The position numbers and the translations under genes are program-made. Under the pieces are notes generated by a model. It was not told the origin of the DNA. It worked only from the letters and a program-made list of their open reading frames with translations, and did no database searches. DNA of 64,000 bases from Mesorhizobium intechi (lineage in GTDB: Bacteria > Pseudomonadota > Alphaproteobacteria > Rhizobiales > Rhizobiaceae). Below are positions 4,411 through 43,736 of this stretch, one piece after another. Location of the stretch: the NCBI RefSeq assembly GCF_002879535.1, contig NZ_PNOT02000239.1, positions 1-64,000 of the forward strand. Direction: 5' to 3'. How positions within the stretch are numbered: position 1 is the stretch's first letter; each line of letters begins with the position of its first letter.

Positions 4411-6888
<2,478 letters not shown>

Positions 6889-40942: not shown

Positions 40943-41011
40943 TGCGCCTGTGAGGGGCGGCGATCACTTTTTCGCCGCCTGTGTCAAATGAGGTAGCGCG
41001 ACAGTCATCGG

Positions 41012-41026
41012 GAACATATCATGAAC
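41012..41026 (+). promoter_or_regulatory. Candidate LexA (SOS) box GAAC-N7-GAAC
   Basis: GAAC at 41012-41015 and 41023-41026 are separated by exactly seven bases, fitting the direct-repeat LexA operator described for rhizobia and relatives. It lies three bases before the start codon of the radical SAM repair gene, so a bound LexA would block transcription or its early elongation. The position is close to the start, but the downstream function (DNA repair) supports it. Confidence 0.6.
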
Positions 41027-41028
41027 GG

Positions 41029-42264
41029 ATGAGTGTTCTCACCGTACGTGAAAAGCTGGCGATCCTGTCCGACGCCGCCAAATATGATGCTTCCTGCGCC
41101 TCATCCGGCTCGGTGAAGAAGGATTCGCTGAAATCCGGCGGCATCGGTTCCACCGAAGGCATGGGCATCTGCCATTCCTATGCACCGGACGGCCGCTGCA
41201 TTTCGCTCCTGAAGATCCTGCTCACCAATTTCTGCATCTACGACTGCAGCTATTGCATCAACCGCTCGTCATCGAATGTACGTCGCGCCCGCTTCAGCAT
41301 CGACGAGGTGGTGAAACTGACCATGGATTTTTACCGGCGCAACTATATCGAGGGCCTGTTCCTGTCCTCTGGCGTCATCCGCTCGCCTGATGAAACCATG
41401 GGCGAGATGGTCGAGGTGGCGCGACGGCTGCGGCTGGAAGAGAAATTTTCCGGCTATATCCATCTCAAGACCATTCCGGAAAGCTCTGCCGAACTTGTCG
41501 AGAAGGCGGGGCTGTATGCGGACCGGCTGTCGATCAATGTCGAGCTGCCCACCGATGAGGGCGTCAAGAAACTGGCGCCGGAAAAGAAGCCGGAGACGAT
41601 CCGTCTTTCCATGGCCAGGCTCCGTCAGAAGATGGAGGAAAAGGCCGAACCAACGCTGAGGACCAAGAAGCGCGAGCGCTTCGCACCGGGTGGGCAAGCG
41701 ACGCAGATGATCGTCGGCGCCGACGAGACATCCGATGACGGCATATTGCACACCAGCGCGCGGCTCTACGGCAGCTATCACCTGCGGCGGGTCTACTATT
41801 CCGCCTTCAGCCCGATCCCCGACTCGTCATCATCCCTGCCGCTGCAGAAGCCGCCGCTGATGCGCGAGCATCGGCTTTATCAGGCCGACTGGCTGGTGCG
41901 TTTTTATGGGTTCTCGCAGCCGGAGATCCTGGAGGGCAGCGAAGACGGCATGCTTGACCTCGCCATCGACCCGAAGCTCGCCTGGGCGCTGCGCAATCGC
42001 GGCCAGTTTCCAGTCGACATCAACCGCGCGGATCGCGAGGCGCTGCTGCGCGTACCCGGCCTCGGCACCAAGGTGGTGGCGAAAATCCTGGAGACGCGCC
42101 GCCACCGGCGAATGCGGCTCGAAGATGTCGGCCGGATCTGCCATTCGATTGCCATGCTGCGGCCATTCATCATTGCCGAAGGCTGGTCTCCAGGCGCGGC
42201 CACCGACAAAACCGGCCTGCGCGACACCATCGTGCGTTCCTGCGAACAGCTGTCGTTGTTTTGA
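41029..42264 (+). CDS. Putative DNA modification/repair radical SAM protein
   Basis: 411 residues from ATG 41029. The radical SAM cluster is CIYDCSYC (C-x3-C-x2-C), with SSGVIRSPDETMGEMVE and conserved N-terminal AAKYDASCASSGS. Near the C-terminus FPVDINRADREALLRVPGLGTKVVAKIL is a helix-hairpin-helix DNA-binding motif. This is the family labelled as putative DNA modification/repair radical SAM protein, usually found next to a uracil-DNA glycosylase-like gene, as here. It probably performs radical chemistry on damaged or modified bases; the reaction is unknown. A GTG at 40981 could extend it, but the shorter start fits the family and leaves the SOS box upstream. Confidence 0.9.
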   Translation: MSVLTVREKLAILSDAAKYDASCASSGSVKKDSLKSGGIGSTEGMGICHSYAPDGRCISLLKILLTNFCIYDCSYCINRSSSNVRRARFSIDEVVKLTMDFYRRNYIEGLFLSSGVIRSPDETMGEMVEVARRLRLEEKFSGYIHLKTIPESSAELVEKAGLYADRLSINVELPTDEGVKKLAPEKKPETIRLSMARLRQKMEEKAEPTLRTKKRERFAPGGQATQMIVGADETSDDGILHTSARLYGSYHLRRVYYSAFSPIPDSSSSLPLQKPPLMREHRLYQADWLVRFYGFSQPEILEGSEDGMLDLAIDPKLAWALRNRGQFPVDINRADREALLRVPGLGTKVVAKILETRRHRRMRLEDVGRICHSIAMLRPFIIAEGWSPGAATDKTGLRDTIVRSCEQLSLF

Positions 42265-42266
42265 CC

Positions 42267-43736
42267 ATGCAGCCGGCAGAGCTCAACCTGGTCCGCTACA
42301 AGGTCTTGCTCGAAAGCGAGACCGATTTTGCCGGTTGGCGCGACGCGGCCCGGCGCCTGGCTCTGAACGAGGTCAGGCCCGAAGATGTCAGCTGGCATGT
42401 CGCGGCCGGCGCGGACCGGACGCAGCGGGATTTACCGGCCCCGCCTGCCGACGCACAACTTGTGGTGCCGCGCGACTTCATCGGGCACGCCGAAACCGCC
42501 CTCTGCCATTCCGACCCCACCCGGTTCGCCTTTCTCTACCGGATGCTGTGGCGGCTGCGCACCGAGCCGAAGCTGCTGTCGATCGCCTCGGATCCCGACA
42601 CCAGGCGGCTCGAAGCCATGGAGAAAGCGGTGCGGCGCGACAGCCACAAGATGCATGCCTTCGTGCGTTTCCGGAAGATTGGCGATGGCGCCGAGGAGCG
42701 TTATGTCGCCTGGTTCGAACCCGATCATTTCATCGTCGAGCGCAATGCGGATTTCTTCGTCAGGCGTTTCACCGGCATGCGCTGGACGATCCTCACGCCT
42801 TACGCCTGCGCCGACTGGAACGGTGAAAGACTGGCGATCGGGCCGGGTGCGGCCAAAGGCGATGCTCCGACCGAGGATGACATCGAGGCGCTATGGCGCA
42901 CCTATTTCGAGAACATCTTCAATCCGGCACGGCTGAAGGTGAAGGCCATGCGAAAGGAGATGCCGAAGAAATATTGGCGGAACCTTCCCGAGGCCTCGCT
43001 CATTCCAGAGCTGATCGCAGGAGCGGACAAGGCCGCCAAGGAGATGATTGCAAGAATGCCGACAACGCCCGCACCGCATCACGCCAAGGTGCAGGCGAAG
43101 TATTGGCCGAAGCATGAGCCGACGCAGATGCCGGAAGATGATGCCGCCAGCAGCATTTCGGAGTTGCGCGAGGCCGCGAAAGGGTGCCGCCGTTGCCAGC
43201 TATGGCGCGATGCGACGCAGACCGTGTTCGGCGAAGGGCCTGATAATGCCAAGGTCATCTTCGTCGGCGAACAGCCGGGCGACCAGGAAGACCTCGCCGG
43301 CAAACCTTTTGTCGGTCCGGCCGGCAAGGTGTTCGACGCGATCCTCGACGACGCGGGGGTCGACCGCCAGAAGGTCTACGTCACCAACGCGGTCAAGCAC
43401 TTCAAATTCGAGCCGCGCGGCAAGCGCCGCATCCATTCCAAGCCGAATGCCGGCGAAGTTCAGGCCTGCCGCTGGTGGATCGACAGGGAATTCGCGTTGA
43501 TCAAGCCGGATCTCGCCGTGGCTCTCGGCGCCACGGCTGCCTTGTCCTTGCTGGGCAAGGCCATAGCGGTGACGAAGATGCGCGGCCAGGTAATCGAGCG
43601 CGAGGATGGTTTGCGCGTGTTCATCACCATCCATCCCTCCTTCATCCTGCGCATCCATGAGCCTGCGGACAAGGAAGCCGAGCGCGAGCGCTTCCTGAGG
43701 GATATGAGAGAGGTGAAGCGGCTGATGGCTGCCTGA
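42267..43736 (+). CDS. UdgX-type uracil-DNA glycosylase fused to a DUF4130-like domain
   Basis: 489 residues. Residues 1 to about 245 form the DNA-metabolism domain DUF4130-like (FLYRMLWRLR, KMHAFVRFRK, FEPDHFIVERNADFF). The C-terminal half is a family 4-like uracil-DNA glycosylase: C307-x2-C310 iron-sulfur ligands, VGEQPGDQEDLAGKPFVGPAG, NAVKHFKF, C401 and HPSFILRI. The insert GKRRIHS holds the KRRIH motif (386-390), whose His forms a covalent bond with uracil-site DNA in mycobacterial UdgX. A TTG at 42261 overlapping the previous stop is an alternative start; ATG 42267 is preferred. It is coupled to the radical SAM gene. Confidence 0.92.
   Translation: MQPAELNLVRYKVLLESETDFAGWRDAARRLALNEVRPEDVSWHVAAGADRTQRDLPAPPADAQLVVPRDFIGHAETALCHSDPTRFAFLYRMLWRLRTEPKLLSIASDPDTRRLEAMEKAVRRDSHKMHAFVRFRKIGDGAEERYVAWFEPDHFIVERNADFFVRRFTGMRWTILTPYACADWNGERLAIGPGAAKGDAPTEDDIEALWRTYFENIFNPARLKVKAMRKEMPKKYWRNLPEASLIPELIAGADKAAKEMIARMPTTPAPHHAKVQAKYWPKHEPTQMPEDDAASSISELREAAKGCRRCQLWRDATQTVFGEGPDNAKVIFVGEQPGDQEDLAGKPFVGPAGKVFDAILDDAGVDRQKVYVTNAVKHFKFEPRGKRRIHSKPNAGEVQACRWWIDREFALIKPDLAVALGATAALSLLGKAIAVTKMRGQVIEREDGLRVFITIHPSFILRIHEPADKEAERERFLRDMREVKRLMAA

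Follow-up and report, generated by a model that had tools for sequence, protein, structure and literature searches.

A radical SAM gene followed directly by a gene that carries a UdgX-type uracil-DNA glycosylase raises two questions: whether such a pair belongs to the DNA-damage response, and which of its parts belong to each other. The locus lies in the window, a stretch of 64,000 nucleotides of the Mesorhizobium intechi genome. The GAAC-N7-GAAC direct repeat that the first-pass annotation had seen ahead of the radical SAM gene is present as an exact match, GAACATATCATGAAC, at 41012-41026 on the plus strand; it had been placed three bases before the start, where the actual gap is two bases (GG), with the ATG of the TIGR03916 radical SAM gene at 41029. 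The promoter of the operon thus contains the alphaproteobacterial LexA operator form, GAAC-N7-GAAC/GTTC-N7-GTTC, and in the accessible text of PMC9578287 and PMC12700426 the consensus for Caulobacter LexA is given as GTTCN7GTTC. As the repeat is also conserved upstream of the gene in relatives, we assign it as a predicted LexA operator (SOS box), and control of the operon by LexA is very likely. Between the promoter and an upstream glutamine-synthetase-like gene, a perfect hairpin of 8 bp (GGCGGCGA/TCGCCGCC, 40956-40979, plus strand), read from the sequence, is a possible terminator.

The second gene of the operon (42267-43736, plus strand) starts with an ATG two bases after the radical SAM stop codon. 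The coupling to an adjoining UdgX-bearing gene was thus correctly anticipated, but the product is not a bare UdgX. According to profile matches it is a fusion of a DUF4130/TIGR03915 domain (42312-42995, plus strand; 209.6 bits) and a UdgX/TIGR03914 domain (42999-43715, plus strand; 329.1-331.4 bits at a cut-off of 189.95). The UdgX part aligns with Mycobacterium smegmatis UdgX (PDB 6ail, E 7.9e-52) and its predicted fold matches with a Z score of ~30 over ~195 residues. It contains the motifs GEQPG, KRRIH and HPSFILR, in line with the UdgX hallmarks, namely motif A GEQPG, the KRRIH loop with the cross-linking histidine, and motif B HPS, listed in the accessible part of PMC10359453. All 67 aligned fusions retain this histidine (His390), although the exact word KRRIH occurs in 35 of 68. 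The GEQPG, KRRIH and HPS motifs are shared with the M. smegmatis protein (6ail and other structures); unlike the latter, the domain is here fused behind DUF4130 in an SOS operon, and the solved chain of 229 residues aligns to residues 295-470 of the fusion only. For DUF4130, neither single-sequence nor profile searches gave a credible relative of solved structure, and in a fold search with the whole fusion model the match list was filled by the UDG domain. A role in anti-phage defence was also considered and rejected, as PADLOC returned no match at 0.1.

The distribution of the three parts over genomes separates the constant from the optional. Above its curated cut-off, TIGR03916 is found in 65 of 146 genomes of the genus, in 54 of 121 of a family sample and in 70 of 349 of a phylum sample; in the same 349 genomes, DUF4130 scores above cut-off in 73 and UdgX in 68. 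DUF4130 is present in all 70 radical SAM genomes, whereas UdgX over cut-off is missing from 16 of them, in which a divergent UdgX below the cut-off is possible. A LexA-type box precedes the gene in 15 of these 16 genomes (10 exact, 5 with one mismatch) and is lacking in one. A second collection consists of named relatives, the best 80 of at least 584, which from their genera we take to be Alphaproteobacteria. Within these best 80 of at least 584, the next frame is DUF4130-like, 271-293 aa long and without UdgX motifs in eight cases, and unclear or cut in four. Seven of the eight DUF4130-like frames align as DUF4130, and the two that were tested both match the Pfam family.

The radical SAM protein and UdgX might nevertheless form one obligate pathway, with the radical SAM protein, for example, resolving the UdgX-DNA adduct or preparing its substrate. 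The operon and the fusion are what such a pathway would predict, as are the occurrence of UdgX in 54 of 70 genomes with the radical SAM gene versus 14 of 279 without it and the size of the second gene, which is that of the fusion (440-520 aa) in 68 of the best 80 of at least 584 named relatives, 67 of these with GEQPG. However, the radical SAM-DUF4130 pair occurs without an above-cut-off UdgX not only in the 16 genomes of the phylum sample but also in all eight genomes with the short DUF4130-like frame, whose completeness is not given and which, like two control genomes, have only weaker UDG matches. UdgX in turn occurs without either partner in 12 of the 14 genomes that have it without the radical SAM gene. 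Five of these belong to the window's own genus (L300-L304) and retain the same flanking genes and all three UdgX motifs intact, with no radical SAM match; of DUF4130, three keep a stub and two nothing. We therefore consider an obligate pathway unlikely.

These five genomes form a natural deletion series; an exact box is found in one of them (L302). Among the nine genomes examined out of the 14 with UdgX but no radical SAM gene, two more (L306 and L310) showed no box within the fetched stretch. In family f3, which we guess to be probably Bradyrhizobium-like, three genomes carry DUF4130 without the radical SAM gene, two of them with UdgX, and each has a box upstream. Because DUF4130 is present in all 70 genomes with the radical SAM gene, while UdgX can be missing from them and survives alone elsewhere, the comparison suggests that the SOS-controlled core consists of the radical SAM protein and DUF4130, with UdgX as an optional extra. 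The emphasis of the first-pass annotation on a radical SAM-UdgX pair is thus not supported: it is DUF4130 that is always present, with UdgX being dispensable.

The first gene (41029-42264, plus strand) codes for a radical SAM protein of family TIGR03916 (rSAM_link_UDG; 558.6 bits at a cut-off of 343.5), which we take to correspond to COG4277, and its earlier identification as a radical SAM protein is thereby confirmed. The helix-hairpin-helix tail that had been described is also supported: with the whole protein, HHH_3 scores 24.6 bits and stays under the Pfam cut-off of 27, and with the tail alone it scores 27 bits (E 4.8e-6). The CxxxCxxC motif at residues 69-76 (C69, C73, C76) and three further cysteines at positions 23, 48 and 57 are invariant in 22 of 22 and in 68 of 68 aligned sequences. 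A predicted model has a mean pLDDT of 84.7, with residues 23-47 below 50, and its closest folds are HydE, lipoyl synthase and biotin synthase (Z 17.5-18.1, identity 9-18 percent), with which it shares the radical SAM barrel. All three of these enzymes have a second Fe-S cluster. Cysteines 23, 48 and 57 may possibly hold an auxiliary Fe-S cluster as well; what distinguishes the protein from the three enzymes is the DNA-binding tail and the extra cysteines, which lie where the model has low confidence.

SOS control and a DNA-binding tail would also suit an enzyme that, like spore photoproduct lyase, directly reverses pyrimidine photoproducts, with UdgX being incidental. Spore photoproduct lyase (SplB) is absent among the 50 matches listed per fold search, and none of the operon proteins gave a match to an NCBIfam or Pfam spore photoproduct lyase family at 0.001. 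The preference for the folds of HydE, lipoyl synthase and biotin synthase and the three extra invariant cysteines speak against such an enzyme, although the fold ranking alone would still be compatible with the activity. Overall, we regard this reading as doubtful.

The assignment of the box was evaluated at loci from two collections, which overlap (L201/L125, L247/L039, L253/L158) and contain related sequences, and all counts therefore refer to loci and not to independent events. The first comprises 149 loci, i.e. the window, all 54 matches of the family sample, 69 of the 70 of the phylum sample (all except G200) and about half of the genus matches; by source, these are the window, 30 loci from the family, 30 from the genus, 28 new ones from the phylum and 60 further ones. 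The second is the named set, in which the closest relative among the matches listed is Mesorhizobium erdmanii (L203), with a radical SAM protein that is 95 percent identical. Loci are called alphaproteobacterial if they belong to the class of the window or to the 80 named loci, and other Pseudomonadota if they belong to the same phylum but to another class. In the first collection, 122 of 127 alphaproteobacterial loci have the exact box, on either strand, no more than 100 nt upstream of the HMM match, and all 127 have it no more than 150 nt upstream; at 150 nt, the second collection gives 77 of 80 (the best 80 of at least 584). Seven altered motifs, used as control, were found in 0-3 of the 127 and in 0-2 of the 80 loci (best 80 of at least 584), and in each of ten 100-nt windows within the gene body the box occurred in 0 of 127. 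In the window as a whole GAAC-N7-GAAC occurs twice, with 1.58 occurrences expected and 49 of 100 shuffled sequences reaching two. Judged on sequence, the position and the conservation of the box are far beyond chance, though its count alone is not unusual.

The three exceptions among the best 80 of at least 584 relatives are L221 and L263, which have a box with one mismatch, and L229, for which none was seen by eye. None of the 22 loci from other Pseudomonadota has GAAC-N7-GAAC within 100 nt upstream; its place is taken by the E. coli-type motif CTGT-N8-ACAG, which is exact in 14 and present with at most one mismatch in 19, while L091, L141 and L142 lack it even at one mismatch. In family f3, five of six loci have no box within 100 nt and show, by eye, a repeat similar to GAATC-N5-GATTC near the ATG. 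A separate repressor was considered for this family and dropped, because ~100 nt upstream the same five loci carry the window's box in reverse complement, GTTCATGATATGTTC, and in all six genomes an exact box also stands upstream of the main lexA. That the box is a chance match or the site of another repressor, with the operon outside SOS control, is very improbable: any 64-kb window should contain one or two such boxes and the genome holds no excess of them, but its place near the start codon in 127 of 127 loci and in 77 of the best 80 of at least 584, set against near-zero controls, speaks against a chance match, and in most of the other Pseudomonadota loci the E. coli-type LexA motif stands in its place. 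On a contig from the IMG/VR viral collection (L279), a radical SAM gene that is 62 percent identical lies at about 4980-6240 among other long open frames, with GAACGTATATCGAAC two bases before its ATG.

A scan of the window's genome for the box, as the first-pass annotation had suggested, finds this operator form at known SOS genes. The bare motif is not enriched, with 158 occurrences in 6.58 Mb and 159 for the reversed control, while the narrower form GAACRWANNNNGAAC occurs 16 times versus 6 for the control. The window's box is among these 16 sites. Another is found 24 nt ahead of an ImuA-like gene, whose match (E 7.3e-14; 52.1 bits) falls short of the family cut-off of 150, and a third ~170 nt ahead of a uvrA match; the boxes of recA (GAACAAAAAAGGTAC) and lexA (GTTCTGGGTTTGTTT, at a contig end) are imperfect, with one mismatch each. 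For the 13 remaining sites, the open frames beside nine (all but L183, L185, L187 and L195) were scanned. Matches were to pyruvate phosphate dikinase, CpaB, an M50 peptidase, DnaB, ribosomal protein L25 and an AAA/UvrD-type helicase, and at three of the nine the neighbouring frames have no family match. At eight of the nine, the scanned neighbours include genes that lack a known SOS role (pyruvate phosphate dikinase, CpaB, the peptidase, L25, DnaB) or give no family match. Even so, with the same form at the ImuA-like gene and at uvrA, and with boxes at 127 of 127 and 77 of 80 loci (best 80 of at least 584), the proposed SOS control by LexA is strongly supported by the comparison.

The position of the box relative to the start codon was analysed for 207 alphaproteobacterial loci with 202 distinct upstream regions; in 193 of them a box lies no more than 90 nt from the chosen start codon. 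The box starts at -16 to -18 in 102 of these, at -19 to -23 in 46, at -28 to -33 in 33 and elsewhere in 12. In the -16 to -18 register, 86 of 100 promoters have a hexamer with at least four matches to TATAAT at exactly -12. In the window this predicted -10 hexamer is TATCAT at 41017-41022 (plus strand), inside the operator and -12 to -7 from the ATG, which would place the start point about at the A of the ATG. A predicted -35 hexamer, TAGCGC at 40994-40999 (plus strand), lies 17 nt before it; its match to TTGACA is weak, and the 100 promoters of the same register have the consensus T.GCc at -35 to -31. At about -45 to -32 from the ATG, this 100-promoter consensus shows, as does the window at 40984-40999, a TCAAA-like word and then T.GC; of the two, only T.GC corresponds to the -35 position. 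A -10-like hexamer is most often at -12 in the -28 to -33 register too, yet in only 12 of 30. For the -19 to -23 group, such a hexamer is found at -16 in 16 of 43 and at -4, running into the start codon, in 20 of 43. In the upstream region of L041, two boxes (GAACTTTTCAAGAAC and GAACATAAATTGAAC) overlap with an offset of 11 bp, roughly matching the two operator registers, and the region is a possible intermediate.

Shine-Dalgarno pairing before the radical SAM gene is weak, with a mean of -2.46 kcal/mol and 35 of 195 regions at or below -4, compared with a mean of -4.22 kcal/mol and 117 of 255 for neighbouring open frames, the starts of which are unverified. The pairing is close to that of shuffled upstream sequence (mean -2.58 versus -2.33). 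Taken together with the hexamer positions, this is consistent with an mRNA that is probably leaderless or nearly so, with LexA covering the predicted -10. The layout is not universal, since in five of six f3 loci the box is ~100 nt upstream and reversed.

For the operon in the window, LexA bound at 41012-41026 would cover the predicted -10 and the start point, and we propose that RNA polymerase is blocked in this way. DNA damage would lead to RecA-stimulated cleavage of LexA and free the promoter, from which an mRNA that spans both genes, with little or no leader, may be transcribed. We infer the binding, the cleavage, the induction and the transcript from the sequence together with the established behaviour of LexA. 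The products would constitute a repair or base-modification module, with a constant core of the radical SAM protein, with its helix-hairpin-helix tail and radical SAM cluster, and DUF4130, to which UdgX may be an optional C-terminal addition that uses its known covalent chemistry to capture uracil or abasic sites. We are confident, short of certainty, that LexA controls the operon with the radical SAM-DUF4130 couple as its constant pair. As likely as not, in our view, is the wider proposal that this pair is a self-sufficient, SOS-induced machine for repair or base editing, with an auxiliary Fe-S cluster and an undescribed chemistry, run from two LexA motifs across Pseudomonadota and with UdgX as an add-on, and that the UDG-linked annotation pointed to the wrong partner. 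As for the chemistry, our best guess, speculative and improbable as it stands, is that the pair reverses or edits a damaged pyrimidine base and that UdgX handles remaining uracil.

SOS control of such a gene pair is known in kind and already in print. According to the accessible text of PMC8565304, earlier work had reported SOS regulation of a putative UDG-based excision system in Verrucomicrobia and Alphaproteobacteria, and the paper itself adds evidence from Bacteroidetes. The SOS-regulated COG1573-COG4277 operons described there share with the present one the two-gene arrangement, a UDG-family protein with a partner and LexA-type control. The present analysis differs from the accessible part of that paper in describing how the promoter is laid out and how the motif switches across Pseudomonadota, with DUF4130 as the constant partner and UdgX as an optional one. 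The frequent overlap of the box with the predicted -10, for an mRNA that is probably leaderless, is probably new; among the matches listed for literature on leaderless transcripts and LexA/SOS in Alphaproteobacteria, as far as their text is accessible, this layout was not found. The literature searched yielded no paper that treats UdgX and radical SAM together, and three papers in which DUF4130, TIGR03914-TIGR03916 or COG4277 is named. Four UDG-family genes of Caulobacter are listed in PMC1839093, the accessible text of which makes no SOS link; the accessible parts of Caulobacter papers and a review do not name this operon, and the Dinoroseobacter paper PMC6473078 makes no mention of uracil or radical SAM.

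What this work adds is the promoter layout, the switch of the LexA motif across Pseudomonadota and the modular pattern of the operon. As a LexA-type box stands before nearly every copy examined, the role of the gene would be testable in any easily handled relative. Genomes with radical SAM-DUF4130 but without UdgX, and genomes with UdgX but with neither of the other two, would provide ready-made comparisons for the role of each part, and they shift the focus from UdgX to DUF4130.
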